NCBI GenBank assembly: GCA_003833135.1
Contig: QZLH01000618.1
Coordinates: forward strand, 10,330 to 60,032
DNA from: Oehlia diaphana
Lineage: Eukaryota > Glomeromycota > Glomeromycetes > Glomerales > Glomeraceae
DNA: 49,703 bases
Direction of reading: 5' to 3'
This document shows positions 2,560-42,982 of this stretch, piece after piece; position 1 is the stretch's first letter, and each line of letters starts with the position of its first letter. A program made the position numbers and the translations under genes. The notes beneath the pieces were generated by a model. It made no database searches. It was not told the DNA's origin and saw only the letters and a list, made by a program, of their open reading frames with translations.

Positions 2560-2957
2560 GTTTTCTATCTCTAAACTAGCATCTCTAAATTCCTATCAAG
2601 AAGTTCAACACTTGGAAACCCAAGTAATATTCTAGTTTCATAAGTCCAACATCTTGCTACATTAGGAATTCTATAACCGCCACTTCCAAGAACTAACTGC
2701 TAACTTTTTATAAATCTTACGCACTCTCCATGAGCTTTAATACTTATATTAAAATCTCATAATCTCTCTTTTCCGAGAGAATCTGCTCCACATTGTAATA
2801 CAATAACACTTGGTTGATAATTATCTCTTACATCTAACATAACATTCTTGAACAATGAAACATAGCTATTATCATCAATTCCATCTTTGATGAGAGGTAC
2901 ATATAGACAAAAGAATTTGCCTAATCTGTAACCAATTTCGCTTGTATTTCCGGTTCC
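2560..2957 (-). pseudogene. Class I histone deacetylase fragment (HOS2/RPD3 type)
   Basis: Minus-strand translation starts [20 protein letters not shown] and continues through [65 protein letters not shown]. These are the hallmark blocks of the C-terminal half of class I zinc-dependent deacetylases, which remove acetyl groups from histone tails. The zinc-ligand Asp of GADSL and the catalytic-type Tyr of GGY are present. Internal stops occur after KERL (TGA), after FIKS (TAG) and again after LEMLV, and one residue is inserted in the PLIKDGIDD loop. A possible acceptor (TTGCAG) precedes the fragment, and the N-terminal half of the enzyme is absent. It is a truncated dead copy; the family call is secure, the HOS2 subtype less so. 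Confidence 0.82.
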
Positions 2958-3104
2958 ATTCTAACGCTGCAATTGATTATTTAATAGGACGTTTTATTTA
3001 CTTATTTTATTTCTAAAGAGTGGTTATTCAAAGTCATAGTATTTGTATACAAAGAAAACAAAGATAAGCTATCTAAAGAACAAGATCATTGATATTCATC
3101 CCGC

Positions 3105-3180
3105 CATGCAGGACCTCACCCTTCGGTAACTGCTATTTGAAACAGGAGAACTACGCTACTGCCCAAATTAAGAACAAAAA
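3105..3180 (-). other. GC-richer block, possible SINE or small RNA relic
   Basis: This roughly 75-base stretch has about half G+C, against under a third around it. On minus it reads GGGCAGTAGCGTAGTTCTCC and then CGAAGGGTGAGGTCCTGCAT. TAGCGTAGT weakly resembles a tRNA A box; no convincing B box or cloverleaf was found. It is not open over any length. A tRNA-derived SINE head or a structured RNA relic are possibilities only. Confidence 0.2.
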
Positions 3181-3413
3181 AATAAGACCAGGACTAATCA
3201 AAAAAAAAATAAAAAGAGTTAAAAAAAGAACTGAAGAGCCTATATATTAAAATAAAATAAACTATAATCAAATCTAATGTGTGAACGAGTAAAGTAGTAG
3301 ATGATAAGTCTATGTTTAATGATGACATCCATGAGAGATTGTAACGGAAATTTGAACTAGTGAGGTATATCCATAAAATGGAGTTGTCGAGAGCGCGGCG
3401 AGAATCATAATAT

Positions 3414-3545
3414 AACCGTGTGGCAAATGTATCGTTCTTATACGATCAGGTACTATGTTCTTATACGACGTATATGTCACACAATATAGGTCGTATAAGA
3501 TAGTATGTCGTACACGTATAAGAACGATACATTTGCAACCGTGTG
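3414..3545. mobile_element. 114-bp Mutator-type MITE, copy 1
   Basis: The element occupies 3423-3536, starts GCAAATGTATCGTTCTTATA and ends with the inverse, and is flanked by a perfect 9-bp duplication AACCGTGTG (3414-3422 and 3537-3545). A 9-bp duplication is typical of MULE insertions. A second copy, inverted, at 10630-10743 differs at a single base in my comparison. The near identity implies recent movement. Confidence 0.85.
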
Positions 3546-3794
3546 AGTCGCTGACACGAGCTGATTCATTAGATGGACCAGAAAAATGATCTTCATGATG
3601 ACGTTTGCTTTTCCGGTAAGTTGTCTTCGTGATTTGGTGTTCCTATTCCATTTTTTTCATTCGGTACTTCGTGCATGCCATAAAGTTTTGAAAATATTTT
3701 CGTGAAGATCTGATAAAAAATTTCCATAATAACTTTTCGATCGAGGCTTTATTTAAACTTGCAGCTCTATATGGGCATATTATATCCTTTGGGA

Positions 3795-4800
3795 TTAAAT
3801 TGAGTAATAAACAGTGGAGGCCGGAGCTTCACTCAATATCATCGGAGGGTTATTAGTCCAGGTAAAAATTGGACAAAAACTTATGCAATCTTCATATAGT
3901 GCATTCAAACTGTCAGAATTAGCTGTAATCGTTGTCTTAAAGATTTCTTTATGTTTATCAAAGACGGGTTTCATTATTTCTAAAACTTTTGGGCAAATCC
4001 ACAAATATTCATTGGTTTCTGGTGAATCATGACAGAAAAAACATTGATCGAATCATTTCAAGATATCGGTTCAGTATGTTTTAAGTCGGGAGATTGTAAC
4101 TAGAAGCCTTAACACGCCAGCTTACAACTTACTATACTTGAGGCTAGTGGGTCTATCAAAAGGATTATATTTCATCCATAATTGTATGTATTCCTAATCT
4201 ATAATTTAATCAAGGGTGAAATGTTTAATTGATGATAAATGTGCGATGGGAAATATGATGATCCAGAGTTCTGATCTTCTTTAAAGAATTTCTTAAGTCT
4301 CGATCTATAGTAATTTCGTCGTTGAACTTGACTGTGCATAGTTGACAAGTGGCGAGATTTGTAACGAGTTAGGATCGTCGCGGCCTTTTTTTTGCTATGT
4401 CATCGGCTGTCATTATATATGTTGCCAGAATGTGCTTTTATTTTGTGTAGTGTTACATCGAGATGAAGCGTTTTAAGAATATACTTAATTGCTTGCCAAA
4501 ATAAAACATTAAACTTTTCGTAAACGTCGAGGTGTTAATTTTGGCGACATTAATGAATTGAAAGTCGAGATTGCACACATTGAGTCCGTGTAAATGTCTA
4601 CTTTACTATGATTAGGGCAGACGATTAAAGCTGTCAAAATAGCAGTTGTTTCGGCTTTTGTCGAACTTGACCAGTGACAGTTGATCCACTGTACTTGATA
4701 TCTAGGTCGATGTTTGTAGTAAATATCATTCTAATCCCATTTTGGAAACGTCGTTATCTCGCATGAGCGAACTATCTGTATAAAATTCCAAATGATTAAA
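3795..4800 (-). pseudogene. RNase H domain and zinc-knuckle tail of a LINE-type element
   Basis: Minus-strand pieces read in order FYTDSSL (near 4780), CHWSSSTKAETTAILTALIV (near 4650), KVDIYTDSM (near 4595), then a long decayed stretch and finally CFFCHDSPETNEYLWICPKV and a 69-codon open tail. The YTD and STKAE blocks are ribonuclease H motifs with the first catalytic Asp and the Glu retained. The Cys/His cluster near the end resembles the knuckle seen after RNase H in non-LTR retrotransposons. Frameshifts and stops are numerous, and the reverse transcriptase part is missing. The element is dead. Confidence 0.7.
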
Positions 4801-5920
4801 GTCTGTTAATTGTGAACTTGTAAGGATCAAAGAAGAAAAAATAGTAAAATAATAATAATTTTAATTAAAAAAGAGGTTTCGTATTTAAAGGAAAAAATAA
4901 ACTATCGTTAAATTGAGGTTCAAGATCCGTATTAAAATTCCTGGATTGATGTTTTGACCATTAATTGAAGATATGCGTTATACGACAGGGTACGTAGTGA
5001 AATGTGTTGTTTAACAGTTCTATATATAATATTTGATCGGTTTTTGTTTTTAGTATGGATGGCTGCGTGTATAACTATCGTGTTGTCTGAGGGTTGACCA
5101 ATTATACATTTAGGTCGATTATAACCACCATAAATATTTAATAGGATGTAAATGGCAACGCATATAAATCATCAATAAAAACGCACGTGACCGTAGAACT
5201 GACAATACTGCTGTTGAAGAGTTTCGGTTTTTCAAAATTCAATCAAATGTTCATGGATTTAAAGAAAAGCAATCGAATTACTTCTTTCTAATTGCTTTTT
5301 TCTATATCATAAATAGCTTGCCGAATGATGAAATATTTTATCTTACAAGTAAGAAATGAGGTGGAAAATTTTATAGCCCAATACAATTTCGTTTTTATGT
5401 ATGAAAGGTGAAAAACATAAATGAAAGTAATTTATAGGTGTATATGGGACAAGTCGCTCAATAAATTTAGTAAATTAGAAATTTAATAAAGAATTTATTT
5501 TATATTTTTTATTATTACAAATTTTATAAATGAAGATTTTTAATTAAACAATATTAAAATTTTTGAGGTTATGGCAGTACGTATCTTTAAATGTGGATGA
5601 TACGCTCACGGATATGAACGTTCCGGTAATTTCAATTATCAGCCAGCCACTATAACCTAATTGCATCATTTAAGATTTCTCGTCGCCTTTCCTGTCATTG
5701 CCGGATTTTCTATGATACTAAATATTAATACCTCAAATTTATTTGAAGTCGATAAATTTTTTTTGCAAAGAGTTCTGTACTATGATTTTTTTTATTTTTA
5801 TTCGTCATCCATTCGATTACATCTATTATAATCTAATTGTGTTCGTAATATATTCAAGAAAAATGTAAAAGATTAAAAAAGTTGTTTAATAACAATCCAA
5901 AATATAAATTAATATCATTT
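4801..5920. other. Spacer without recognised genes
   Basis: AT-rich sequence between the RNase H relic and the XPF relic. I see only short open frames and no repeats that could be named. The stretch 5560-5710 is slightly GC-richer and may hold decayed coding DNA of the XPF relic's 3' part, but no motif could be matched. Confidence 0.4.
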
Positions 5921-5922
5921 AC

Positions 5923-7159
5923 CTTTGGTTCTTTAATTTGTTGTGTAATTATACCACCTGTTATACGTGTATTAATATTAAGGATTCATCTTGATTGTTA
6001 ATTATTCTTACCCAAGGAAATAACCATGATCTAATAAATAATCATAAATACAGAACATAAATCATTCGTCATCTAATCCTTGACAAAAAGGAATCGTAAA
6101 ACCGAAATATATCTTATATTTGCATTTTTTTCTCTAACTAATTTTTCAAATGCATCCTTTTCTTTACGTATCACACTTATATATTTTTGCTCTTCGATAG
6201 AATTTTATACATCATAAAAACACTTTACATGGTAAATCAGGATATAAAGTTCAATATACCTATTATTCTAAACCAATAATCTTAACCTTGAATATAAAGT
6301 AAAATCAAATTACTGTTAACTTCTCGACTAAAAGAAACTTACTTCAACACTTCTAACAAAAGCTTGGTCAGGATGATAAATAATAATATATTTGGGTGTA
6401 ATACTCTATCGTCTTCTTCACCATTAATAGGTCTAATAATAATTAAATTCTCAAGTCCAACAATCCAAAATAAGTAGAAAACGCTTCCACATCAAATTCA
6501 TCGTCATAACAAGTTGATGAACTATTATTTGAAGAAGTGTACTCCCTTAGTTGTGAACATTCCCTTTCATTTTCCATCATTATTAATATAGTATTGTTTA
6601 AATGACTTAAATCTCCTCCTTCGGATGAAGTTCTTGAAGTTTAAGTAGCGTGACTTATTATATCCGATTCGATATCTCGTAATCTTTTCGCACCTAAATA
6701 AAGTAAACTCCGATAAATTTGTATAAACAGTCAAACGTAAACTTTGTAAAAAATATATCTATGAATAATATTACACTAAAAATCGAATTTCTAGCATCCA
6801 AAGATAACCAAGGAGATTGTTGTTGTTGTTGTGAAAAAACAGAAGTGGAAGTTTGACTTGTAATAATGGTTTCTAAAAAACTATTAAATGATACGCAATC
6901 ATATCCAACCAAGTAACTATAATATTAAAAGTTGATCCAGTTAAACTCAAAAAAAGAACTCCAAAAAAGAAATTAACGGAAAAACTTAATCAAATACATA
7001 CTCAAGTAATTTTTTTAGAGTAGTTAAATCATTAACTATCAACTTAGTTTTTGAGCTGACACGATTCCAGACAGGTTCTAATTGTTGTTCTATTATTATA
7101 TCGAATGATCTAAAAAATGAATTTTCTACTGATAAATCATCAACGTTGAATAAATCACA
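5923..7159 (-). pseudogene. XPF/ERCC4 (RAD1) structure-specific endonuclease relic with introns
   Basis: Exon 1 (7159-7002) encodes FDIIIEQQLEPVWNRVSSKT and ends LTTLKKLL. A 85-base GT-AG intron joins in phase to exon 2 (6916-6777) DYLVGYDCVSFNSFLETI and SPWLSLDARNSIF. A second GT-AG intron joins exon 3 (6693-6343) with NERECSQLREYTSS, FDVEAFSTYFG, ENLIIIRPINGEEDDRVL and YIIIYHPDQAFVRSVE. Further pieces are NSIEEQKYISVIRKEKDAFE (near 6150) and INTRITGGIITQQIKEPK ending at a donor at 5923. These are conserved helicase-like and linker blocks of XPF, which cuts DNA in nucleotide excision and crosslink repair with an ERCC1 partner. A TAA after HAT, two frameshifts in exon 3, a deletion between the CSQLREY and FDVEAF blocks, and no visible ERKX3D nuclease motif show it is dead. 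Confidence 0.85.
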
Positions 7160-7214
7160 AGCTTTCGGTTAAAATAAAAAATACTGGAAATTTTATAACT
7201 GGTTACCCAATTCC

Positions 7215-9219
7215 ATTCCCCTTTTTTGTTTCACTTAAAGATGGTCGATTTGTCGTCATCGATGGTGGCGCTACTTTGCCCTAAATTCATTAATGAGACG
7301 CAAAGCATCATCAGAAGGTCGCGTATTTGTTCGCAAATTTGAGGAAGGGCAACTCACAGTAGACGATACTGGATTTAATGCAAGATACTCACATAGCAAA
7401 GTATTACGGTATGATGAAGGATTGCGTGGTACTATTCAATATTGGATACGTCGTAGAGCTGAATTAGATAAGGTCTCAGAGAATGATTTTTTTTACATTT
7501 AGCGCAGATATGCATTGGTAAGACTTACATAATCTAATGCATAATGGAGAAAATTCTGTAAACACAGAAACAGTCCAGGAAGCTGCCAGGCGCCGACGTA
7601 AAGATCTCATAAATAATCTCCATATTGCTGCATGGTTCTTTGAAAAGCGATTTAATGTTTTTTTTTGAGAAAGTGTTAATGTTAATTCCTAAATGGGGAT
7701 TAGTTGACTGGTGGTATCGATTTGAGTGACAAAATCATGGTAGTATTTACCAGAAATCGATTGGGAAAACATGAAAAATAATGACGAAAAAAGATTCTTT
7801 AATTACAACAATCAATCCCACCTCCTTCTGATCACCGCCCATGCCAAAAGCACTCTGAAGATAATAATGGTTACCTTACTTACCTAGAACTAACTACTGC
7901 CAGAAATGATCCACTTATAAATACACATAATCGTATTCAATTACAGGGATGGAGGGAAATGTTGATTTGATCCATCCTTACCAAGCAGTATGTTTCGAAG
8001 TATGCTAGTGAAGCAGAACCACGGTCCTTAGGGTACTTAGCCTTCTCGGAAGTGTTGGACAAAGCTCTTCGTAATGATAACCCAATGATCCAGCTGTTAA
8101 AACATCCTAAAAGTTGCTCATTCACACAGTTGCGGCTTTTAACGTTGAAGGCAGCACTATACATTCGTCACTTTCTGTTCCAATATGCGGATAAACATTG
8201 AGAATCTTTGAAGAAACTCTAAAGAAAACTAAAATATATAGAATATTTTATAATCGATGAAATGAGTATGGTAGGACGTCGTTTTCTTGCTATAATTGAT
8301 TTACGACTGTGGCAAACATTTCCGGATCACTACAATATTCCCTTTGGTAGCCGATCCATAATTCTTGTTGGTGACTTTGGGCAGCTTCCTCCGGCATGTG
8401 ATGTTCCCATGTATTCTCAGGACTCTTGAAACAGATCATATGGTCGTAGTGCCTATAGTCAACTTCAAGAAATTTGTAAACTAGAGGCTATGCAAAGACA
8501 ACAGGTAACTCAGATAAACAACTACAATTCAGAAATCTCCCATATCACTTACGTAATGGAAGGTCTACACGATCCGACGGGGAATTATTAATGACGCGAA
8601 TTCCAGAAAATATTCCGAATCAGAGAGAAAAACTTCAGATGCCATCAATGTTCTAACAACATGGGAAGAAGTGGATAAAATAATTTTGAATAAACTTCGA
8701 TTATTAACCCAACCCGTTGCTAAGATTCATGCGGTACATACGGGTGGATCTGAAGCTTCTAACTTCTAAGGCCTGCAGAATGCCGTTAGTCTTATAAATT
8801 GGGTAATAGGGACAATAACAGATATTATATATAAAGAGAAGCCCGAGTACACCTTTTTACCTGAGTTTCATTTGACAGTATAACGGTCCAACTCTTAGGA
8901 ATATAGAAGGGCCTATTGTTCTATAAGACGTGGGAAGATAAAACCGGAAGTTGCTCTCGCTTGCAATTTCCATTTTCTCTTGCGTGGGCCATCACAGCTC
9001 ATAAATTGCAAGGTCTGACTTTATCAGAAGTAGTAATAGACCTTGGAAAGAAGGAATTTGTGCATTTGTAGCAATTTTCCGTGTTCGTTCTCTTGATGAT
9101 ATTCTTTTCAAACACTTCAGTTTAAACAGACTTGAGCGTAAAAGGTTGAAAGAGCGAATATCGGAAGAAACTAGATTAAGTGGAATACAACGATTTAAAA
9201 TTTCCTCGTTTTTTTAATA
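7215..9219 (+). pseudogene. Decayed Helitron Rep-helicase (copy on plus strand)
   Basis: Rep part: an open 69-codon stretch from 7293 with EGRVFVRKFEEGQLTVDD and LRGTIQYWIRRRAELD matches the C-terminal Helitron_like_N domain, followed by HIAAWFFEKRFNVFF, LQGWR, and KQYVSKYASEAEPRS (near 7985), equivalent to the YVAKYASKKEPQS tyrosine motif of the larger copy. The HVH metal motif region is degraded. Helicase part from about 8240: FIIDEMSMVGRRFLAIIDLR, then PFGSRSIILVGDFGQLPP (Walker B and following Pif1-type motifs), and SLAWAITAHKLQGLTL-like sequence near 8980. The segment carrying Walker A is deleted between the two halves. Stops and frameshifts are frequent, so this copy is older than the one at 33600-39506. 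Confidence 0.85.
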
Positions 9220-9654
9220 ACCAAATTTGTTTTTTCGTTGAAAAAAGATTATCAGAATCTTGTGTTACAAATAAAAAGGTTATTAGTGGAACTGAGGGCC
9301 CGAACCAACTTTTCTTATGGATAATACAAATAATTAAAGGTGATGCAAACGTTTTATAGCAGATTTATTCTTTATTCATATTTTTTTTTTGTTAACATTT
9401 GCTTCTTCTAAAGATCTTATACAGGTTTGACAGGATTCATAATTCATATCAATTAAACTCTGATAAAATATCATAATAGGTATAAAATTTATTTCGAAAA
9501 AAAAGAGTTTAAAAATAAAAAAATACAAGTAAAATTAAAAAAAAATCATTTTCATCTTGAGAAAAAAAAATCGAGGAGGAAGATGAAGAAAATCAGAGGG
9601 AAGGAAAACAGAAAATACAATTAAAAGAAGATATAATGCGTGTCATCACCGTCA

Positions 9655-9965
9655 AATCTATCTTCGCCATCTCATAAGATTAGCTTCTTTTACGATCTAG
9701 ATAGTAGATAGTCTACTATCTAGACCTCATCTTATGAGATGGCGAAGATGAAATCTCAACGTAAAAGAATTCACCCAAACCGACACTTAATAAAAAGAGA
9801 AGAATGGTTAGTAAACCGTTTTATAATAATATAATAATAAAAAATAAATAAACCAAGATTCGTACTTACAAATCTTGGCCGTTTGGGTAAATTTTTACGT
9901 AGAGATTTAATATTTGCAATCTCATAAGATGAGATTCTTTTACGCCTAGATAGTCTATTTGACGC
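9655..9965. repeat. Nested foldback repeat
   Basis: ATCTTCGCCATCTCATAAGA at 9660 is inverted at 9730-9749. Between them lies a 29-base palindrome, TCTAGATAGTAGA-TAG-TCTACTATCTAGA (9696-9724). A second inverted pair joins GAAATCTCAACGTAAAAGAA (about 9750) and the stretch ending at GAGATTTAATATTTGC (about 9880-9917), and CTCATAAGATGAGATTCTTT recurs at 9921. The layout is that of a foldback-type or snap-back MITE. Confidence 0.65.
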
Positions 9966-10575
9966 CTAACAAAAGAAAAAGAAGTCATTGTTCATTTAGT
10001 AAATAATTTTTTATCAAATTACCATGAAAGACGGCATTTTAAAAGAAGTCATTGATAGTAAATAATTTTATCATAAATTACCTTGAAGGACCGTAAGATT
10101 TTTATAGGCGCGCGTTCCGCCCGCCAACATTAAATCTTTGTTTAATTGTGCCTTCCGGTTTCTTTCTCTCTGATTTTCTCCCTCTTCCACTTCCCGATTT
10201 TATTTTCTCAAGAGGACGCGGCGAACGCGAGAGGAGCGCCGATATTTTTTTTGTGGACCCGAGCAATTCTAACAAAAGAAAAAGAAGTCATTGATAATAA
10301 ATAATATTTTATCATAAATTACCTTGATAATGGCGCGCATTAAAACGTTCACGACGTGCTCAAGAAAATCTTGAGCAAAATAATTCTTCTATTTAACTTC
10401 TAAAAGAATGTACAGTACTGCGGGTTGTGCGAAAAAATGTTTATTGTGTGGGTAGTTGTGGTAGTTGTGAAAAAAAATTTTTTCGAAGTTTTAAGTTTAA
10501 CCACTGTTTAAACCAAGATCTCTATTTATATTCAAAATTGCAAGTTACTGAATTAGGATCGTGTTTCGTGTTTTG
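9960..10575 (+). repeat. Dispersed repeat copy 2 (tandem AAGAAGTCATTG units plus coding remnant)
   Basis: Three units of AAAAAGAAGTCATT...ATAAATTACC occur at about 9970, 10040 and 10270. A GC-rich patch (10108-10250, with GGCGCGCGTTCCGCC and GGCGAACGCGAGAGGAGCGC) separates the second and third. Then come RALKRSRRAQENLEQNNSS (10338-10394) and a tail with TTTAACCACTGTTTAAACCA. The same order appears on minus at 1010-1380. On the opposite strand each tandem unit begins AAGGTAATTT and ends near TTTTGTTAG, so it could also read as an intron. Confidence 0.5.
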
Positions 10576-10620
10576 TTGTTAACATATATAACGTGTATAC
10601 GTGTGGAAAAACACGTAACT

Positions 10621-10752
10621 GACTTAATAGCAAATGTATCGTTCTTATACGTGTACGACATACTATCTTATACGACCTATATTGTGTGACATATACGTCG
10701 TATAAGAACATAGCACCTGATCGTATAAGAACGATACATTTGCGACTTAATA
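10621..10752. mobile_element. 114-bp Mutator-type MITE, copy 2
   Basis: The element at 10630-10743 is the reverse complement of the copy at 3423-3536 with one base difference. It is flanked by a perfect 9-bp duplication GACTTAATA (10621-10629 and 10744-10752). It carries no gene and would depend on a transposase from elsewhere. Confidence 0.85.
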
Positions 10753-11575
10753 CGTACTAAACTGACTTTAATGACTTTAACCCACGTGTAATACTTTAAT
10801 ACTTCGTTAAATTCAGTGACGCGCGTGACAAAACAAGTGAAACACTTATGAATCTCTTAAAAAGTATAACCAAGAATTATACTTACATTACCAAATTACT
10901 AAGTTATTTTAACAATCCAATTTATGCTATAAAAATAAAAACTTTTAAAAATCATTTAGGGTTATATTACCTTAATTTCTAAATTTCTAAAATTTTTTGA
11001 TTTCTTAAATTATTTAAATATATCTTCTAAAAGAGATATGCATTTTAAACTTAATGCTATTTTCATAATATATGAATTAATAGTCAATAATAAATAAATT
11101 TGATTTGTTTAAATTTACAGAAAATTTTAAAAGTTCATAGGAATTCAGAAAAAATACTTAAAAAATTCTTATGCTTTTTAAAATACAAACAATTTTTTTT
11201 TTATAAATTAATAATTTTAGATTATAAATTTGATGTAAAAAATATCTTTTATTTAATTAAACATTAAATATAAAATTAACAAATATTTTCTAAAAAATAG
11301 CTAGTTTTATTATTAAATACTTAATTAGATTTATAAAAATATTTTAAGTCTTTAATATTTTATAAAAATATAAGAAAATACTTTTTTATATAATTATATA
11401 TTATACAATAATTGTTAAATTTATAATACTAGAATAGTTAAAATTACTAAATTAAAAATCTATATTTTATATAATATAAATTTTTTTTTTTGATAATATC
11501 TAGATTTGTAGTCTATTAAGTGAAAACATCAGGGTAATTTACTAAAATAATGTGTTATATATTTGATTAGTCAAT
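10753..11575. other. Very AT-rich spacer, no genes seen
   Basis: Long A/T runs and no open frame of note. Nothing in it could be assigned. Confidence 0.5.
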
Positions 11576-12478
11576 TTTTTTTTTTTTTTTCTTTGTAAAG
11601 GCATGATCATGTTTATTAATAATAATGTTAAAGTAATACAATATATTTACAAACGTAAAATAAAATAAAGTATTCTAAATTTATTTAAATATTATCAACA
11701 TACTCTGAAGGAAAAGACCGACCTGTCACCTTGAGATCAAAGATGACCCATCATGATAGGTTTAAAAATTTGACCAATAACCTCCCTTATCAAAAACTAG
11801 GCTATTCCATAGCTCCCAACGTGAACTTATTATTTTATCTAATTTGTTAATTACTAATTTAGATTTGTTGGCTGACTTTTTCATCTTTGCATTAATCCCT
11901 CTCTGATGTTCTAGATCAGCTAATTTAACATTCCTATACTCCCATATGAGAACTTTAAAATCAAAAATTTATTTATTAACCAAACCATCTAATAACCTTA
12001 TCCTATCTTTGTCTATCATTTTGTAACTTTTAAATAAATTAACTAAATTTATATGCACAAAACCTTTTGCTAATATAGACAAATTATATGTTTTATTAAA
12101 GTCCCAAATCTTGCAAAGCAAAATTTCTTTAAGAACATTCTCAGAGTTTATATTTTCTTCTTGACTATTAGCTAATATCAAGTCTTGTATGTATTGTTGT
12201 AATTTACCTATTATGTTTTCATTTACTTGTTTTAACTGTTCACATTTCCATAAGTGTAAGTATGTTTCACTATCTTTTAAACACATAGGACATTTCCATT
12301 TAGAATTATAAACATGTGGCTTTCTTTTAATTAGATTATCCAGTGTTGGTAATTCTTCTGTCCGAATTTTAACTTTAAATGAGTTCAATTCATGTTGAAA
12401 AAACCCAATTTTTCTTATACCATCTGTATCTTTTTTAATTTGCAGTAGTAAATTTTTTTTGTTTATTGTATAATTATA
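11576..12478 (-). pseudogene. 3' end of a LINE (ORF2 C-terminus with zinc knuckle, poly-A tail)
   Basis: The minus strand is open from about 12478 to 11969. It encodes DTDGIRKIGFFQHELNSFKV, a basic stretch LIKRKPHVYNSKWKC, and a Cys/His cluster CPMC-x15-LWKC, like the knuckle after the reverse transcriptase or RNase H of non-LTR elements. A second piece in another frame (KLADLEHQRGINAKMKKSAN, near 11900) ends in SRWELWNS. A run of T at about 11576-11591 on plus corresponds to a 3' poly-A tail on minus. The 5' part with the polymerase domain is absent, as usual for 5'-truncated LINE insertions. The call rests on the knuckle, tail and layout. Confidence 0.6.
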
Positions 12479-13079
12479 AGTTTAGTTTCGCCTTCAATTT
12501 GATGGCCAATTTTCAATTAAGGCATTCGCGTATCTCATTTTGACTTAAATGTTCAAATAATTTAAATAATTTGCATTTTTTTTATATTCCAGTACAAAAA
12601 AAGTTATATTAAGTAGATCTCCCATAGTTTTACTTCTTTTATACATTAGACATTCTGGTTTGAGTCTTATAAATAATATAATAAGTAAAATTATTTATGT
12701 TGTCGAAACTATTAGAAGTATTTAGGTACAGTTACTGTGAATGATATTCCTTTTATTACCAGAAGAAATTTGCGGCAAAAATTAAAATTGCAATCGATAT
12801 AAAAAATTTGTACAGTATAAGTTCGAATTAGTATGTGATCACAAAATCTACCTTGACAAAGCGTTTGGTAAAGTTTTATTTTTTATTATCAAAAAAAAAA
12901 AAAAAGAAAAAGGAATGATATGACTCATATTAGTAAAAGAAACTACTATACTAATTAATAATGAAAGAAAAATGAAAACAATAAATTCAATAAATAGAAT
13001 GTATAAAGTTCTAATATCATTTATTCTAATAAATCCAATAAAACTAATAAATATATAGGTTAATAAGTTACTATATGCT

Positions 13080-30469: not shown

Positions 30470-30569
30470 TATAATATTTTTGATCATAAAATATTCTTTG
30501 GTCAGCTTTAACAAACGTACAGAAAACCTTTATTAGATGACTAAAACTGATGCAAATCAGGCCAATCAG

Positions 30570-31496: not shown

Positions 31497-31499
31497 ATT

Positions 31500-32905: not shown

Positions 32906-32908
32906 ATC

Positions 32909-33052
32909 AAATATTACCTAATATTTAGAGAAAGGGGTAACCAAAGATCTTAAGTTATATACAATACTATATAAGAAATTATATATATAATATATCTTAC
33001 CTAAAAGAGAGGGTAAGCTCTTATATTAAAGTGATATTAGGTAATATCTGAC
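32909..33052. repeat. Small inverted-repeat element (about 140 bp)
   Basis: CAAATATTACCTAATAT at the left is mirrored by ATATTAGGTAATATCTG at the right, with an AT-rich centre. It is likely a MITE; flanking duplications are not clear. Confidence 0.5.
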
Positions 33053-33198
33053 AATGCCCTTATTATTATTTACTTTTTTAGATTTTGTATTTATAGGATT
33101 AGTTTCTTTATACAATTTATCAAAAAAACTAATTAAATCTGCAACTACTTCTTCTAATATAATTTTAAATTCATCAGAATTATAAATTGTTTTTTATT

Positions 33199-33345
33199 GT
33201 CCAGAGCGAAGTGAAGGACTATATATGTTTATGAACCTTAATGACATATTGAATCACGTGACGATGTCTGTTTGTCCGCACGCATCACGTCAGCTGATTC
33301 TTTATGCTACATAGATAAACAACCTGATAAACAAGATAAGCTAGT
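33199..33345 (-). mobile_element. 3' terminal region of the Helitron
   Basis: Read on minus it ends CATATATAGTCCTTCACTTC then GCTCTGGAC, preceded by CATCGTCACGTGATTC. Very similar to 835-955 (CATCGTCACGTGAC; ATATATAGTCCTTCGCTTCG). The terminal hairpin GTCC...GGAC may be the signal that ends rolling-circle transfer; that role is inferred. Confidence 0.55.
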
Positions 33346-33599
33346 GTTAGTACTGTGTTACAAAATATACTGCGCAAAATTAGTGTTACAAGAATAGTGT
33401 TACAAGATATACTGCAAAAAAAAGATGTGAAAAAAAAAATTAAAATGTTTTGTAGAATTAGAAATTTTAGTTAGATTCGTAAAAATAAAATAATGTATTT
33501 TATTTACAACACAAACGCGCGTTAAATATAATATTAGACGTTTTTATCAAAAATACCTTCAGTTTTTTTATTTTTTTATTGTTAGATCTATTATTAAAT

Positions 33600-33987
33600 T
33601 CAGTTTTCTGGCATCATGAAAACTGAACTTTTCTCTTCAGCTAATCTTTCTTTTAATCTTGTGCATTTTTTAAAACGTTGAAGTCTCTCGAAATTGAACG
33701 GTTTGAAGAGAAGATCTTTAAGGGCGCGTACCCAAGACACTGCCACAAAAGCAAAACTTGCGATAAACTTTTTATCACCAAGGTCTATTGTAGCCTTTTG
33801 TAATGTAAGACCCTGACTTTTATGCACCGTAATTGCCCACGCAAGACAAACTGGAATTTGTAAGCGCGAACAAGGAGCTCCAGATTTACCATTCCAGATA
33901 CGTCTAATTGGTACAATTGGTACAACTCTTTTACCCTCTAAGCTAGTAATGGTGGGATCTTTATAAATATCGAAAGAGATCAACTTA
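33600..33987 (-). pseudogene. Helitron helicase C-terminus (Pif1-like motifs V-VI)
   Basis: The minus strand is open for 127 codons: ISFDIYKDPTITSLEGKRVV, then LQIPVCLAWAITVHKSQGLT (the AxTxHKSQG motif V region), LQKATIDLGDKKF and FAFVAVSWVRALKDLLFKPF. In Pif1-like helicases the last block normally reads SRVR, with the arginine needed for ATP hydrolysis. Here it is SWVR, which a CGG to TGG change explains. A TAA follows MMPEN at 33600. It continues the helicase at 35200-36257 but is cut off from it by a TA-flanked insertion. Confidence 0.85.
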
Positions 33988-33989
33988 GC

Positions 33990-35195
33990 TATCAGTGCCT
34001 ATTTTTTTGATTACCATATAATAATCCTGTAATGTATATTTTGTAATAATTGACAATATAATTGCTATTATAATTTAATATATATTNNNNNNNNNNNNNN
34101 NNNNNNNNNNNNNNNNNNNNNNNNNNNNNNNNNNNNNNNNNNNNNNNNNNNNNNNNNNNNNNNNNNNNNNNNNNNNNNNNNNNNNNNNNNNNNNNNNNNN
34201 NNNNNNNNNNNNNNNNNNNNNNNNNNNNNNNNNNNNNNNNNNNNNNNNNNNNNNNNNNNNNNNNNNNNNNNNNNNNNNNNNNNNNNNNNNNNNNNNNNNN
34301 NNNNNNNNNNNNNNNNNNNNNNNNNNNNNNNNNNNNNNNNNNNNNNNNNNNNNNNNNNNNNNNNNNNNNNNNNNNNNNNNNNNNNNNNNNNNNNNNNNNN
34401 NNNNNNNNNNNNNNNNNNNNNNNNNNNNNNNNNNNNNNNNNNNNNNNNNNNNNNNNNNNNNNNNNNNNNNNNNNNNNNNNNNNNNNNNNNNNNNNNNNNN
34501 NNNNNNNNNNNNNNNNNNNNNNNNNNNNNNNNNNNNNNNNNNNNNNNNNNNNNNNNNNNNNNNNNNNNNNNNNNNNNNNNNNNNNNNNNNNNNNNNNNNN
34601 NNNNNNNNNNNNNNNNNNNNNNNNNNNNNNNNNNNNNNNNNNNNNNNNNNNNNNNNNNNNNNNNNNNNNNNNNNNNNNNNNNNNNNNNNNNNNNNNNNNN
34701 NNNNNNNNNNNNNNNNNNNNNNNNNNNNNNNNNNNNNNNNNNNNNNNNNNNNNNNNNNNNNNNNNNNNNNNNNNNNNNNNNNNNNNNNNNNNNNNNNNNN
34801 NNNNNNNNNNNNNNNNNNNNNNNNNNNNNNNNNNNNNNNNNNNNNNNNNNNNNNNNNNNNNNNNNNNNNNNNNNNNNNNNNNNNNNNNNNNNNNNNNNNN
34901 NNNNNNNNNNNNNNNNNNNNNNNNNNNNNNNNNNNNNNNNNNNNNNNNNNNNNNNNNNNNNNNNNNNNNNNNNNNNNNNNNATATTACAATGAAATGTAA
35001 AAAAATAATAATTTTGTAATATATGATAATTATCCTTTTATATTAGTTACAATATTAATATTAAATATTATGCTTGTTAATAGACTTATTAATATATATG
35101 TTATTAAATATGATATTTACATGACATGTTAAAAATTCCTATTAATATTATTTAAAAAGCATTATAAAATACTACCAAAAAAATCACCACTGATA
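33990..35195. mobile_element. TA-flanked insertion inside the helicase, with inverted repeats
   Basis: Left TCAGTGCCTATTTTTTTGAT (33992 on) and, read inverted, right TCAGTGGTGATTTTTTTGGT (35193 back) are imperfect terminal inverted repeats, each next to a TA (33990-33991, 35194-35195). The helicase sequence stops on one side (LPIAVFF) and resumes on the other (SFDIYKDP). A Tc1/mariner-type element or MITE fits. Most of the inside is the assembly gap, so content is unknown. Confidence 0.65.
34087..34981. other. Assembly gap (895 N)
   Basis: All bases are N. The gap lies inside the TA-flanked insertion and its true length may differ. Confidence 0.99.
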
Positions 35196-35199
35196 GCAA

Positions 35200-36257
35200 A
35201 GAAGACCGCAATAGGGAGTGAAGGGGGACCCTAATCTTCTTTGAATATTATGTCTTGGACAGTTCCCATTGAACCATTGACTAGCCCAGCGTCTGTCTGT
35301 AAGTTTGCCGTTAACATGACTCTTGCGCCTCTCGCCAGTAATATATATGCTCTGAGACCATGCGCTGTATCTGAGTCGGCTTTTTTAGCTTCTTTTCCAC
35401 CTGTATGTATAGCTTGGATTTTGGCAACAGGAGCATCCAAAGATCAAAGTCGATCTATATTTACCGCGTTGACTTCGGACCACTTTATTAGAATGAACAA
35501 AGCGTCAGAGAATCTACTACGTTCTATTATACTGAGCTTGTCTTCAATTCGTGTGGTAAGAATTTTCCAATCATCTATAGTAGATTCTCCATTACGCAGT
35601 CTTAAGAGAATATTTCTAAAGTTTTGTTGCTCTTTAGAATTTCTGGATTGGCGCTGTGCAATTTCAAGCTTATACACTTCTTTGAACTGCTTGTATGCCA
35701 CAATACCACTATTAGATAATGTACTTCGTTTTGTATCAGCATACATAGGAAGATCAAGGACAGGTGGAAGTTGACCGAAGTCACCGAACAAAATAATCGA
35801 CCTGCCACCAAATGGTTCGTTATTATGTTCAGGAAAAGCTTGTCGGAGCTGCTTATCAATTATAGCAAGCATTCGACAACCAACCATACTCTTCTCGTCA
35901 ATTATTACGTAACTTACATTTTTTAATTTATCTTGTAGTTGCTTCAGCCATTCCCCGCTTATATCAAGACAATTTGCGTCATTAACTATCGGAATTGATA
36001 GTCCTGAATGAATCGTTATACCGTCAATGTTGAAGGCCGCAACTCCTGTTGGAGCGAGCACTGCTATAGGTGACTTAGGTCCTCCCGCCATTTCTCGAAG
36101 CCTGCATCAGATTGCTTCTATTAGATATATAGGTCTTACCGGTCCTAACAGTTCCTATCACAATGATCCTTAAAGGTTCATCTTGACGTCCCTCAAGCGT
36201 ATTGTGATAATGTAATTCTATTCGCTCGAAAACAATTTTTTGATTAACATTTAACGT
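35200..36257 (-). pseudogene. Helitron Pif1-like helicase core
   Basis: Walker A appears as GTVRTGKTY (near 36150), followed by a 4-base TATA slip that shifts the frame into YLIEAI-stop-CRLREMAG. The next frame is open from 36091 to 35444: VLAPTGVAAFNIDGITIHSG (motif Ia), SYVIIDEKSMVG (Walker B), PFGGRSIILFGDFGQLPPVL (motif III), NFRNILLRLRNGESTIDDWK. After a TGA (35444), VAKIQAIHTGGKEAKKADSD and GARVMLTANLQTDAGLVNGS lead to a TAG (35231) and GPPSLPIAVFF, where the insertion begins. Walker B usually reads DEMSM or DEISM; here it is DEKSM. This 5'-3' helicase would unwind DNA during rolling-circle transposition. It is inactive through stops, the frameshift and the insertion. Confidence 0.9.
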
Positions 36258-39200
36258 TTAATAATCCATTAATACATTTTCTTCTTCGCCAATCTTAGGA
36301 TTTCTACTTAAAAACGTATCAATATTCACGAGGTCCGTATATCGTTCTCTCAGATCGTTAATCCAATCATGGTTCCAATCCATGTCTTGCGAACCTAGAT
36401 CAGAAGAGCAATCGAAATTTGGTTTTGGGCCCATCTCAGCAAGAAACATCCAGTCAGGTCGATGTTCGTCTTGTTCATCATCATCTTCTTCAAATAGTTC
36501 TTCTTCATTGTTTATTTCGCTTTCTTCATCATCTATAGGTGACCCAAGTAGATCAATTGGATCAGCATTGATCTCTTCGATATAATCATTGTACAAAGAT
36601 GACCATGCAATAGTTCCGTCTTCGGTTAAATCTTAATCTCAGTGTCGAACGTGAAGAAGAACCTTCACTCAGCAAAACTCCTCCCATTGAGGACCCTTGC
36701 GTAAGGATGATGGGGGTGGAAAGACACGCACAACATTTTCCTGTTGACACTCTTTCCATCGACCTTTAACCAACTTGTGTGTCAAGTGAAGCCAGAATAG
36801 TGTGAAATCTTCAAGTTCAGTAGATCGATCCCAATATATTTTTAAAGGTGATTTCTCTGTTCGCCCCAAATTATTATTAATAGAATAAGATTCTTCACTT
36901 TTCCCAGTACCACGAATCCATCTTGGTGCTTCTTTGTTAAGATTCAAGAAGACAAATTGCCAACTTGAATGGTAAAGAGGAAGGCCGAGAAGAATATGGC
37001 AGGTTTCTTGGGCAGAAATGTCCCATTCCGCAACACTATGTAATAAAAGCTTTTGGGCCAGAGCAAGTAACGTATCTTCTGGCTGACTTTCACTAAAGAT
37101 TCGATCCAATACGTCCGAAAAGGCTAACGATTGCGGTTCTTTTTTGCTTGCATATTTTGCAACGTATTGCAGCGCAGCATGTATACTTAGGATTGGCTTT
37201 AAATCCACATTTGCCCGCCAACCCTGTAATTGAAGTCGACTATGTGAATTTATGTATTGATCGTTCCTTCTCATTACAAGCTCCAGTTGTCCATTGTTAT
37301 CATCTCGCACGAATGTTCTTTCAACAATTTCTTTAGGATATCTAAACTGGCAAATCTGTTGTCCTTCTCGGTTGATACGAAGACAGTACGCAGGACTACA
37401 TCAGGTATGTCGTTGTAATTTATTAATCAAGTCAATGTAGTCTTGCTGGTCATCATTTAATTCATTGCTTTTCTTTTGGCACGGATGCCGTTCAGGAACA
37501 GGCATATCGAGTCCTGAATTTATTGTGGTAACGAGACTGTCAAGATATTTTATAATTTCATTCATTTTGTTCTCATCTTTCTTCATATGCTTCCATTCTA
37601 TTGTAGGTGCATTTTTTCTTTTTCTGATTTCATGCACGTGAACACTGCCGCGATGTTGCCATTTGAACCTAAACCACCAATCTTCCAAATCCCATTGTTT
37701 CTTTAAGACGTCGTTAAAGAAAATTTCAAATCGCTTATGAAAAAACCAGTCCGCGATATGAGGATTATCCATGATATTTTGGTGATGGCGTTTGGCTGAA
37801 GTTTCACAATTACCGTTAGATGGCATAAGCTGATGGAGCTCAGGCCAATGCAAATCGGTGGCACTAAATGTAAAAAAGATTAAGCCATCCAGTCCTATCT
37901 GCTTAATCATATCGTTTAATTCGTTGCATCAAGTATACCAAAATTGACAAGATCCACGTAAACCTTCTCCAAATCGCATGATTCTATTGGCCATATAGTT
38001 ATCACCTTGGGTAATTCTTTCCTGAATATCTGTAACGGTAATTTGCGCATCAGTAAGATTTTGCTTAATGTACACCTTTCCTTCTTGTAGTGCCCGTCAA
38101 TGCATCTGAAAATTCAATGCGAAATACCGCCAACGAGCATGATGCGCAAATCTTTCGTCCTTGTATTGAAGAAGGTGCCTGAAATACTCAGCAGGCTTTA
38201 TATCTCTAATACGTTCCACGCGAAGGTCTGCACTTCCAGTCGGGTATAAGGTTGGGAATGCGCATGCTATATACCCTGGCGTCTGGAATTCGTTAACAGG
38301 ATTTCCATTTATTTGTGGCCACATTATGGGATGATTTTCATTTTGTATTCGATCGAGTGTGTTTCTAATAGCAGTATCTTCACGATTGGCTGAGAGTGGA
38401 AGTGGAACGAAGGTATGTGTAATAACGTCATCCTCACTTTCGTCGTAATCAACATCTTCATTAATGTCTTGAAGTTGGTCATCAATTGTGCCATCAATTG
38501 GCAGAGACTGGAGAATTTCATGATCGATGATTACGTCAGCGTAGTAACGATTATTTTGTTTTTACCAGATTAACGCTTGAGTGACCTTATCATGACGAAC
38601 TTTAAAATCCCTAAACGCTTCTGCATTGCTCGCAGATTGATGACGTATGACAAGCACATCTAATAATGATGGATGCCTAGGAAGCTTTGAAGCAAATTCT
38701 TGGATATCTTGAGGAAAGTTGATTACATTTTCTCGATATTCATGCTGACCTCCACGAAGTCTATAAACTGACATCACGGGAAATACTCGTGCAACCAACA
38801 TTTCCTCAATTTCTGTGAGATCACGAAGTTCATCAGGTACTTCGCCTGGGTCCATATTGTTATCTTTTGAAAATTTTTTTGGCTGCTTCTCTTTATGGCA
38901 ATGTTGGCATTCCCCCCTTATAATTACAATTGATGGAAAACTTTCATTGCACGTTGTGCAGAGCGAATGTTTAAATTTATTAACTTTGTTACGAAATTTC
39001 TTTAGAAGATCTCGCTCGAATTTACCAAGTACACCAGCATCAGTATGTGTGTCTGCGCCATCTTCTGCGCCGTCATCTTCTGCACCGTCCACGCCACTAT
39101 CTTGAGACTTTTGCTGCAGATTTTTTTGTTACGAATTCAAGTCTTGGGCCGTTGTATTTTGAATATTTTTCAGGTATTTTCTTCGTTTACAGTAGTAACT

Positions 39201-39506
39201 AAGACGTTTTTCATGTTATTCGTCCGTTTCTGTTGCTAACTTTACGCGTTTTCATTCTTTGTCACGTGCATCACACACCTCTCGCTCTTCAGCATTTGCA
39301 TTTTCCCTTGCTCTTTTTTGCCACGTAATTTCATGTTGCTTTGCAAGGCGTGTTTCACATTGACTAGATGTTTCATTCTCTCTAGCTTTACGCTTTCGAA
39401 GTGTGTCACGGCTTATGAATTTATTATCCATTATGCATGCTATAGAGAAACTCCATAGTGGCTTGTATTTTACTTTTGTTAATCGAACATCGCATATAAT
39501 CATCAC
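36258..39506 (-). pseudogene. Helitron Rep (HUH) half with DUF6570-like N-terminus
   Basis: One frame runs the whole length with about eleven stops and no visible frameshift. Order: basic repeats from MDNKFISRDTLRKRKAREN (39430); a Cys-rich DUF6570-like domain with CTTCNESF and CQHC, then DELRDLTEIEEMLVARVFPV and MSVYRLRGGQHEYRENVINF; EFQTPGYIACAFPTLYPTGS (start of Helitron_like_N); LTDAQITVTDIQERI and GEGLRGSCQFWYT; FFTFSATDLHWPELHQL; RFKWQHRGSVHVH with the HxH metal motif; ALQYVAKYASKKEPQS with the paired nicking tyrosines; then an acidic linker. Stops are at 39252, 39216, 39129, 38562, 38097, 37929, 37401, 36669, 36639, 36633 and 36258. Rep nicks and joins single-stranded DNA. All key residues survive, so inactivation is recent. 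Confidence 0.92.
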
Positions 39507-39789
39507 GCCAGATTACCGTATTTAGAATAAATATTAGTGATAAAAAAACGGTTAATTATGCATTTATTCTTACGAATTTATTTTTACCAATTTTCAATTG
39601 TTGTTAATAATTAATTACATGATAATAGTATGATATACTTATTTAAATTTTATTTTACAAATAATACTCAAATTTTATTAACGTATACATTTAATTATTA
39701 CATTTGATATTTATGATTACTACATTTCTTATCTAACCTTAAATTCGAAATGTTGCAAAAGTAATTAACAAAATTTTCTCGCTCTGGAC

Positions 39790-40277
39790 CCCCAACGGTT
39801 TCCGTTTCCTAGTTTAAACTAATTTTATTAGAAATAGTTAATTGTATTATGATTTGATAATCTAATTCAAACTGTTTTAATTTTTCTCCACTATATAATA
39901 CATCTTTTTTATATAAATAAATATGATTTTTTATATTTAATATATTATCATCATTTTCTTTTTTAAAAATTGATACATTATATTTTCCTAACATATTATA
40001 ATTAGGATTCTTATTTATTTTTTTTTCTATATAAGTTATAAATTTAGCAGTTTTTATTTAATTTAAAATTAACATTAATCTTTTTGAAATTTTTTCAAAA
40101 TTAAGATTTTTTAATCTTTATTTATATTTTTTTAATTGACTTTTATATTCACCATTTTTTAAATAAAAACTAGTAATATTAAGTTTAAAATTATATATTT
40201 TATTAGTAATAAATTTATTATAGTGAGTTTAATACTAGGAAATGAAAACTGTTGTAAATCTGAAGTGAAAAAAAATG
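39790..40277. other. AT-rich spacer beyond the Helitron 5' end
   Basis: CCCCAACGGTTTCCGTTTCC adjoins the element end. A 61-codon minus frame at 39809-39994 is Asn/Lys/Ile-rich and looks like chance. Nothing else seen. Confidence 0.4.
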
Positions 40278-40425
40278 TTAATATCTGATGTATCCCAAAT
40301 TTATTTTCATCTGGTATAACACAAAATTTCAATGACGTGACACATGCAAATAATCGAATATTGTCACATGATACTATTTGACATAGTCCTTCAAAAACAT
40401 ATATAATCCTTCACTTCGCTTCAGA
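40278..40425 (+). mobile_element. Solo Helentron-type 3' terminus, degenerate
   Basis: Aligns with 835-955: TATCTGATGTATCCCAAATT, CAATGACGTGACACATG, then AACATATATAATCCTTCACT and CTTCGCTTCAGATAA. It points opposite to the neighbouring Helitron, so it is not that element's own end; together with 33199-33345 it looks like a long inverted repeat around 7.2 kb. Confidence 0.5.
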
Positions 40426-40429
40426 TAAT

Positions 40430-41250
40430 AATATTATTTTAACTAAAATATTTCTTATTATTAGTAATTTACCTAATTACTTCTTTACAATCAAGTAAAT
40501 TCTATTGATACAGTATTTATTGAATAATTTATAATTTTTTAAAAATAATATTTTGTATTAAAAATAGTACTATTTTTATAAATATTAATAAAATAATTTT
40601 TAAAATAAATCATAAAATTATATCCAAAAATTAGCTTTATTAACCATAATAATTGCAAGTATTTTTTTAATAATAGCTTCTTAGTTATTAAAATTATTCT
40701 CTTAAATACTAATCAAATTAGGATAATTAGCATATTATTATAATTATTAAATATTTCAATCTAAAGTATTGCATTTTTTTTACTACAATAATTTTATAAT
40801 ATATTTTTGATAATCTAATTACCAAATAAATATTATAAAATTTTTTTGAATAAATATAGTTTTATTTAACTTTAATCTTTACATAAAATTGTTATATTTT
40901 TTTTATTAAAAATAATAAAAGATAAAAAAAAACTTGAAATTTACCAAAGTTAACAAGTTTTAAATTTAAATAAAAATTAATAAAATATAGCATATTTTTT
41001 TTTTATTTAATAACTTAAAAAAAAAATTTTTTTTTTAGTAGATTTATATAATAAATTTAAAAAAAAAGCTTAAAAGATGAAAATTTAAAGAAAAGTTTAA
41101 TAGATAAAGTTGAAACTTTTTATATTGAATATAATGAATATAAAGTTTAGATAATATATAAGTAAATGAATTTTTAGAATTTTTATTTGAATTAGATTTT
41201 AATATGCTTACAAATGCAAAAAATTAGTTTAACAAAATATTTTAGAAAAA
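40430..41250. other. Very AT-rich spacer, no genes seen
   Basis: Long A/T homopolymers and no open frame of note. Confidence 0.5.
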
Positions 41251-41254
41251 GAAG

Positions 41255-42095
41255 ACAATTGGAAGAATTTAAGTGATATAAAAAGTAATTTTTCTGAGAC
41301 AGAATCTAATGATGAGTATGATGAAACAATTACTAAAGTACCAAATAATGAAAATAACTCTATGTGTGTAATTGATATGTTAGATAGTAAAATTCAGCAG
41401 TACAACTATAAAAAAAAATTGAGATGACTTTGGCAAATGATTGGAACTTAGCAAATTGATGATGAAGAAGTTAAAGCAAAAATTTTTTTATTTCCATTTT
41501 TTATATAATCAAAATCAATTGCATTTATCAAATTTAAAAACAAATTAAAGATTATATGGAAAGTATTATTTATAGATATAATTGTTATTTTGTAATAAAA
41601 ATAAATATGGTTCTAATTGTAAAAAACATCCACATACAGTTATAGGTAAAAATATTCAGGTATCTTGTATAAGCAAATGAAATGTGGTTCATTGCAAACA
41701 ACCATTCTTTTGTAATTCCAACAAATTTGAGTAAACATGCATGATATATATGAATTGTTATAAAGAAAAGGGTGGGCATATTTATCAACATATTGGACAA
41801 GATATAAAAAAAGAAGGCATTAAAAGTAATTGGATATTGGATTCTTAATATTGCTAATTCTGATAATTTACATTTCAAGAAAAGGTTTTAACACATTTAA
41901 CTCCTATTTAATGTATTATTAATATTCAAGAAAAATCTGATACTACATCATCAACGCTACTATCAGTATAAAATATAAAAAATGAAGTATCTTCTATATT
42001 ATAATTCTTATTATTCTTATTTTAGTAAAAATTAAATCCTAAGAATCTACATCAAAACATTTTTTGAATTTGAAGAAGTATTAGCACATACAATA
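41255..42095 (+). pseudogene. Decayed protein-coding relic, unrecognised
   Basis: The plus strand reads EDNWKNLSDIKSNFSETESN then DEYDETITKVPNNENNSMCV and IDMLDSKIQQYNYKKKLR (41255-41425), then NCKKHPHTVIGKNIQVSCIS (about 41610), KEKGGHIYQHIGQDIKKEGI with KSNWILDS (41765-41850), and LTHLTPI, EKSDTTSST. Stops and small frameshifts separate the blocks. The acidic start followed by a Cys/His-bearing segment (CKKHPH, CKQPFFC) suggests a nuclear or transposon-related protein, but I cannot name the family. Confidence 0.45.
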
Positions 42096-42099
42096 ATAC

Positions 42100-42270
42100 T
42101 CGCGAAAAATGGTCAGGACGTTTCGCCGAAAAATCAGGACGAACGGTTAAAGCAACTACAAAATAGTTTAAAAGAAGCGAGATTTGTAATAATCGATAAG
42201 ATAAACATGGTGGTCACTGAATGGTTGCTTTAATTGACATGCGGCTTCGGCAAGCTTTTCCAGAGTATAA
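42100..42270 (+). pseudogene. Scrap of a Helitron helicase (Walker B region)
   Basis: The plus strand reads LKQLQNSLKEARFVIIDKIN then MV, and after a 1-2 base shift MVALIDMRLRQAFPEYNIQQ. This matches the Walker B block of Helitron helicases (VIIDE-SMVG-RML-IID-RLRQAFPE), with the key Glu changed to Lys. It ends abruptly at the EED-like relic. Confidence 0.7.
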
Positions 42271-42309
42271 TATCCAGCAAATTTTGTGACAATGGCCACC
42301 ATTAAACCT

Positions 42310-42982
42310 GTAGAATTATTGGAAGCCGCTGATTTTACATCAGACTTCCAAAGCAGTATCCTTGCGTCACGAGCACATCATGTCAGTAAGAGATCGCCGT
42401 ACCATTTACACAATCCACAAATTTGCCTGTTGAAAATATAGGATAATGCACCGTCACACCGTCACTTTGATGGCGTGCCGTCCGATGAACAACAACAATT
42501 AATTTTTCCTAATTGATTCCCCGTTGCAAGCATTCGATAGTCACACAATATTCTAAGTCGAAGGAACCAAAGATCACAATGCATGAATTCGAATTCACAA
42601 GCTTGATTGTTGCTACCTTATAAAAAATTTTCTGGAAAAAAACTCCAATGAATGATCATTTTTCTAGTTGTTACTCCAGAAAAACTCAGACATGGCTGGA
42701 AAGTAAAGAAATCCATCAATTTACTAGAAAATTTAAAAAGTTATATCACTTATTCTTACCTTACTAGCAGCTGATTCACCTACAACTACCGTTGTGATGT
42801 TAGAAGCCGCTGATTTTACATCAGGCTTCCAAAGCAGAATCCTTGCGTTGTGAGCACCTCTTGTCAATAAGAGATCGCCGTATCATCTTACACAATCCAC
42901 AAAGTTGCTGTGTACTTCGCCTGTTAAAAAGTAGAGATGGGTCTCTGGGTGGAACTTCATCTCATGTATCTCTTATATATAT
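42310..42982 (-). pseudogene. EED/ESC-like WD40 (Polycomb PRC2 subunit) relic with exon duplication
   Basis: Exon 1 (about 42982-42759) reads EIHEMKFHPETHLYFLTGEV then HSNFVDCVR, a TGA where Trp is expected, YGDLLLTRGAHNARILLWKP, ending at a GTAAGA donor. After a 65-base intron (TTTCCAG acceptor) comes ACEFEFMHCDLWFLRLRI and CDYRMLATGNQLGKI (about 42600-42500). The pattern VDCVRW-GDL-LS...WKP...CDLWF-RF...MLA-GNQ-GK is characteristic of EED/ESC, the WD-repeat subunit that binds H3K27me3 in PRC2. At 42450-42325 part of exon 1 (VDCV.WYGDLLLT...ARILLWKSDVKSAAS) occurs again with a frameshift, in the same orientation. Only a few WD blades remain. The copy is dead. Confidence 0.75.
42325..42450. 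repeat. Direct repeat of the 42800-42937 segment
   Basis: GAAGCCGCTGATTTTACATC and AAGAGATCGCCGTA, with CACAATCCACAAA, occur in the same order at 42331-42420 and at 42804-42903. Divergence is roughly 10%, and the spacing is about 475 bases. Confidence 0.75.

Follow-up and report, generated by a model that had tools for sequence, protein, structure and literature searches.

Results

Four decayed gene copies among Helitron relics

The stretch analysed here (the window; 49,703 nucleotides, contig C615:10330-60032, from a genome deposited under the name Oehlia diaphana) carries, among relics of Helitron transposons, fragments of four conserved nuclear genes: an HDAC3/HOS2-type histone deacetylase (HDAC), XPF/RAD1, a TPX2-like factor and an EED/ESC-like Polycomb protein. 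We conclude, with a probability of roughly 0.7, that all four, lying in a transposon-rich part of this Rhizophagus genome, arose as DNA-level duplicates of ordinary nuclear genes and have since decayed, and that transposons later cut most of them up. Helitron capture is not needed for the EED, TPX2 and XPF pieces, while Helitron-assisted copying of the HDAC piece is possible. We infer that the copies were made by ectopic repair or recombination, and there is no indication of a function for the fragments.

All four fragments served as queries against the whole genome (108.8 Mb, 1672 contigs, numbered here with a C; w denotes a window position, and the end of the window is the end of its contig). 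All four relics proposed by the first-pass annotation are present on the minus strand with matches far better than chance would give. The best match outside the window is an open gene for HDAC (C172, E 2e-138) and for XPF (C1054, E 4e-249), the contig C1495 for TPX2 (E 1e-168), and for EED another relic (C827, E 2e-266), followed by C174 (1.5e-56) and C696 (9.5e-52), where EED exons are open. The annotation had held that a lack of intact parents would refute capture; open-framed relatives of all four were found in the same genome, namely the HDAC gene at C172, the XPF gene at C1054 (eight exons and an N-terminal exon), TPX2 exons at C110 and EED exons at C174 and C696. The retention of introns in XPF, TPX2 and EED was borne out at all three relics, which marks these as DNA-level copies; the HDAC piece lies within one parent exon, so that no intron is expected there. 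The proposal of Helitron-mediated transduplication thus stands as regards DNA-level copies with open relatives, while Helitron capture as their general cause is not supported.

The EED relic belongs to a long duplicated segment

In the EED/ESC-like relic (w42311 to about w43656, minus strand), one exon is duplicated internally and a dispersed repeat is inserted at about w42614-42694. A search with this relic, 40 of 186 candidates being scored, gave 49 rows, 14 of which represent the window, C827, C174, C696, C884 and C495, the others being the dispersed repeat (32) and a helicase scrap (3). The C696 exon matches Polycomb EED in PDB (E ~1e-15), and the introns of the relic are 82–83% identical to those of C696 and C174. 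The relic lies at the edge of a collinear block of 7.7 kb (w42027-49703) that aligns with C827:34298-27374 at 79–86% in its main pieces, includes the region upstream of the gene and runs to the end of the contig; w42311-47741 is also collinear with C696, where EED is open, at 69–86%, and w44050-45235, a repeat-rich reading frame, is missing from C827. We judged the 79–86% identity too low for C827 to be a haplotype copy and rejected that possibility.

Contact between the EED relic and a helicase remnant, claimed previously, was confirmed: a scrap of a PIF1-type helicase (w42141-42271, plus strand; tblastn with a profiled query, E 5e-6 in the window and 1e-14 in C827) is joined to the relic, and the same junction is present in C827. 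The window and C827 thus have in common the scrap, the rearranged EED and the dispersed-repeat insertion, the last of which is absent from C696 and C174. This common broken structure indicates that an already broken EED copy was duplicated again together with several kilobases of neighbouring DNA. Over 493 exon sites, the window and C827 together differ from C696 and C174 by 51 changes, distributed 20/20/11 over codon positions 1/2/3 (the order used throughout), and window-only changes number 9/5/4, as against 0/2/14 in C696 and 5/4/9 in C174, the last a weak third-position excess.

EED/ESC-like loci are multiple in this genome, with open exons at C174 (L044), C696 (L045) and C495 (L047), and related sequences at C884 and C827, the last of these a relic like that of the window. 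EED-like proteins also form several clusters in R. irregularis and R. clarus. Within the block, w43902-44903 (minus strand) holds an open frame of 333 amino acids with a 45-nt repeat, rich in Q and P and without a Pfam match; its start resembles an HMG box.

XPF and TPX2 as a probable linked pair

The XPF/RAD1 relic (w5811-7238, minus strand) consists of exon and intron pieces of the C1054 gene, which it matches in three pieces at 90–92%; the only other contig matched is C783, at 91%, which carries its own XPF 3' relic with different deletions. The eight exons read at C1054, which give the numbering used here, form one open frame there, separated by GT...AG introns. The window relic retains introns 2, 3, 6 and 7 and part of intron 1, and two internal losses took out exon 5 entirely, together with most of exon 4 and the first part of exon 6; the edges of the lost stretches lie off the splice sites and therefore mark deletions. 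The relatives were identified as XPF by the ERCC4 domain and by a match of the N-terminal exon to XPF in PDB (E 2.6e-6). The other strong ERCC4 locus, on C146, is MUS81, and a third, on C69, had no PDB match at E 0.001. Pairwise XPF changes, counted without an outgroup, are 21/11/22 over codon positions.

The TPX2-like relic (w24842-25866, minus strand), which has a dispersed insert at about w24979-25113 and by eye a GT-AG intron at about w25355-25298, is closest to C1495 (88.2% identity over 1025 sites; tree support 1.0; branches 0.13 vs 0.044), with which it has short downstream pieces in common. Gene-level matches lie on C1495, C110, C792, C783, C1054 and C381, the remaining rows being small dispersed repeats or short matches, and the relatives were identified by PF06886. 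At C1495 (L036 3637-4358), a single TPX2 exon is present in three tandem copies.

All three contigs with XPF matches (C615, which holds the window, C1054 and C783) also carry TPX2, upstream of XPF and mainly on the same strand. On C783, the XPF relic (L007 4778) comes after a TPX2 gene of the same strand, whose last match to the TPX2 locus of C110 (L007 4448) lies ~330 bp before it; on C1054, a rearranged and partly inverted TPX2 relic precedes the open XPF gene; and in the window, TPX2 lies upstream of XPF on the same strand, with the Helitron relic that borders XPF in between. The chance of finding TPX2 near XPF is ~0.26% per XPF locus (7 TPX2 loci, 20 kb on each side, 108.8 Mb), or 0.4% when four further contigs with a TPX2 domain are added. 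The presence of TPX2 on all three XPF contigs makes the two relics look like a decayed linked pair.

The HDAC relic and its downstream Helitron tail

The HDAC relic (w2491-2958, minus strand) is part of the last exon of the gene, w2491 lying just past the stop codon, as judged by identity to C172 and codon analysis. It is 91% (w2621-2958) and 89% (w2491-2599) identical to C172:112.4-113.1 kb, and an internal deletion at w2600/2620 removed ~228 bp of parent sequence. The Pfam HDAC profile (PF00850) matches the relic with 72 bits and also identified its relatives. The best match of the C172 exon is an HDAC of Rhizophagus diaphanus (450 amino acids), followed by five proteins of R. irregularis, and by eye the last exon at C172 is in agreement with the R. 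diaphanus protein. The host is therefore a Rhizophagus, probably R. diaphanus itself or a very close relative. Apart from C172, the genome search returned C48, C57 and a 35-bp piece on C773.

The copy extends into the 3' flank of the gene (w1745-2490, minus strand), which it has in common with C172 and partly with C57 and not with C48, and which down to w1745 is 76% identical to C172 by BLAST and 84.5% over 607 sites by MAFFT. Changes on the window lineage number 40 at 481 sites (21/10/9), with no third-position excess; at the same sites, C172 has 2/4/6 and C48 5/4/19, a third-position excess. The C57 sequence is a separate relic, with counts of 43/43/31 at 594 sites that are inflated by misalignment. 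The codon-position counts suggest that the HDAC and EED relics have been under no coding constraint since they split from their parents.

Beyond the flank lies a Helitron-family 3' tail (w961-1602, minus strand) that points the same way as HDAC and is collinear with its counterparts at C172 and C57; the match is strong at w1238-1384 and elsewhere made up of short or low-complexity pieces. The family tail is likewise found downstream of HDAC at C172 (115.2-116.0 kb) and at C57. This arrangement, the one result that leans towards the first-pass annotation, raises the alternative that a Helitron assisted the duplication of HDAC only, the tail downstream of HDAC at C172 serving as the 3' end and copying starting at varied points within the gene; such a process is compatible with ordinary duplication of the other three genes. 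Gene, flank and tail do keep one order and one orientation at all three loci (C172, C57 and the window), the window and C57 relics are both 5'-truncated at differing cut points, and C48 has the HDAC gene without the flank. Against this, the match between C57 and C172 resumes past the tail (L039 8517-8566 and 8696-8983), pointing to a wider duplicated segment, and a 5' end was not observed. The 9 kb of sequence read around either HDAC locus, at C172 and at C57, holds no helicase coding part. We regard Helitron assistance at HDAC as a minority possibility, to be kept in mind for this gene.

A related and slightly less probable idea is that the tail beside HDAC drives one-ended duplication, giving 5'-truncated copies with variable starts and a common tail, and that the XPF piece (w5811-7238), which has w5234-5775 on one side and the helicase on the other, may represent another capture by this family, an internal one. 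The sequence w5234-5775 is a repeat to the left of XPF with copies on C668, C137 and C381 and may be a Helitron 5' region. Comparison of w5230-5815 with the other Helitron, the rest of the window and 18 loci gave nothing convincing; the rest of the window offered an AT-rich match of 60% (w47997-48190) and another of 32 bases.

At its 5' edge, the HDAC relic joins a stretch resembling C773 (L042 4587-4725), which is split into w2958-2992 and w5137-5248 by a LINE-like insertion (w2993-5136, minus strand; an RNase H reading under the Pfam cut-off, with a target duplication of ~14 bp by eye). This stretch may be the relic of a hAT-type protein. C773 was considered as a cleanly unoccupied site of the HDAC block and rejected, as only the two split pieces are common to both, and these reveal the LINE-like insertion. 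A palindromic element of 117 nt is present in two inverted copies (w3420-3536 and w10630-10746, 98% complementary).

Junctions between gene fragments and Helitrons

The Helitron beside XPF is a helicase relic (w7239-9232, plus strand; found by tblastn, its end placed by eye) that is cut inside the reading frame on the XPF side. The 56-base gap reported between the two is in fact close to zero, with XPF homology reaching w7238 and three other Helitron copies aligning from w7236-7237. We rejected these common starting points as proof of an element end, because the query to the left of them is XPF; other Helitron copies match from the junction on, as they would beside any truncated copy. Copies of the relic occur on C172, C1003, C1282, C317, C305 and C827. 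A 3' non-coding tail of the same family lies at w9327-10580 (plus strand) and has copies behind helicase sequence on C827, on C137 and twice on C172 (48.9 and 122.5 kb); with 40 of 89 candidates scored, it was not seen at the other helicase matches (C1003, C1282, C317 and C137:115.9 kb). Among the matches listed, free-standing tail copies occur on C142, C31, C139, C109, C338 and C452.

When breakpoints are compared with Helitron structure, both the XPF/Helitron and the EED/helicase junctions turn out to lie within the helicase gene. None of the XPF, TPX2 and EED fragments showed a Helitron end at its edge, the true ends of the family being undefined, and the nearest Helitron coding piece to TPX2 is 2.8 kb away (w21865-22014). 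The gene searches, that for EED with 40 of 186 candidates scored, listed no further joint copies of a fragment and a Helitron, save the HDAC loci and EED at C827, and a tblastn scan of 21 sources with the second Helitron of the window as query found Helitron coding sequence in two, the window and C827.

This second Helitron (w33194-40434) has PIF1 and Helitron_like_N matches and a run of N at about w34085-34981, and is flanked by inverted dispersed repeats of ~200 bp. The repeat at w40230-40432 was not used as a Helitron end, since it is a dispersed element with at least 43 match rows (40 of 59 candidates scored). The coding piece at w21865-22014 (minus strand; tblastn E 2e-9) is a third Helitron helicase. 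In the region to the right of the TPX2 relic, an inverted repeat of 129 nt (w26855-26983 and w27563-27691) is 97% complementary, with 579 nt between its arms.

Discussion

In the history that we favour, the XPF and TPX2 copies would be remnants of a linked TPX2-XPF pair into which a Helitron inserted, after which a deletion may have fused XPF, in mid-exon, to the Helitron, in mid-gene, an order of events that we infer. The EED copy would belong to a long segment that was duplicated a second time after the break had occurred, and the HDAC copy would be the 3' end of a gene, probably duplicated along with the flank downstream of it and a Helitron 3' tail.

Several observations weigh against this account. 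In the window, TPX2 and XPF are 17.7 kb apart, and the XPF search found no match on C1495, to which the window TPX2 is closest. Identity is higher in XPF exons than in XPF introns (94.1% at 915 sites vs 91.3% at 392 sites), C827-only EED changes lean slightly to third positions (6/6/10), and the first-position excess among HDAC changes may reflect misalignment where the relic ends. The outer ends of the EED block lie beyond the sequence reached. The Helitron tail follows HDAC in the same orientation at three of three loci that have its flank, a pattern that an origin by Helitron would produce as well. On C137 the repeat w5234-5775 precedes the final portion of a similarly oriented Helitron helicase gene by ~3.3 kb, a position upstream of the helicase that makes it possible for XPF to lie inside a Helitron.

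Helitron gene capture, or transduplication, is well known from maize and bats, and the window resembles it in having intron-bearing, DNA-level pieces of host genes near Helitron relics. Capture of several unlinked host genes, with rolling-circle elements dropping pieces here and their ends decaying since, would account for the Helitron relics at the XPF and EED breaks, the retained introns and the Helitron 3' tail after HDAC at three loci. It is nevertheless improbable: no enclosing ends were seen, both junctions lie within the helicase gene, the EED segment extends beyond the gene by ~6 kb in C827 and by ~4 kb in C696, a contig with open EED, and XPF and TPX2 occur together on three contigs. 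Candidate hairpin-CTRR ends number 14 and 15 per strand, near the chance level given by 12 two-base block shuffles of the window (mean 11.9, range 8–19), although fungal Helitrons can have other ends. Processed pseudogenes placed by LINE machinery can be dismissed, for although the HDAC and XPF relics have a LINE-like insertion between them and the HDAC piece derives from a single exon, introns refute this origin for the other three genes and the HDAC copy takes in ~0.75 kb of downstream flank and a Helitron tail.

The fragments are closer to duplicated (unprocessed) pseudogenes arising from segmental duplication, in which introns, flanks and neighbouring sequence are copied together. Flanks or gene order were copied along in the 7.7-kb EED block, the TPX2-XPF pair on three contigs and the HDAC flank; HDAC and EED have no third-position excess since the split, and deletions and transposon insertions followed. 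Nothing differs in kind from such pseudogenes, although the HDAC copy also bears a Helitron tail.

Published accounts of fungal Helitrons vary. In Pleurotus, Helitrons reportedly have not captured pieces of genes of their own host and carry genes that probably came from other hosts (PMC4289320). The Fusarium oxysporum study counts 27 putative capture events, to which its authors assign no important role, and describes 5'-TC and 3'-CTRR ends, non-canonical fungal ends and an end-bypass model (PMC5148889). For R. irregularis, small RNAs from Helitrons, among other transposons, have been reported (PMC8647823). Among the titles listed by literature searches pairing Rhizophagus with Helitron, none was on gene capture, and a search on segmental duplication in arbuscular mycorrhizal fungi listed (10 of 26) mostly plant gene families and nothing convincing.

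Relics near Helitrons are thus easily misread as captured cargo, and duplicated segments and linked genes account for most of those seen here. The association of HDAC with a Helitron tail at three loci offers a testable case of Helitron-assisted gene copying in arbuscular mycorrhizal fungi.

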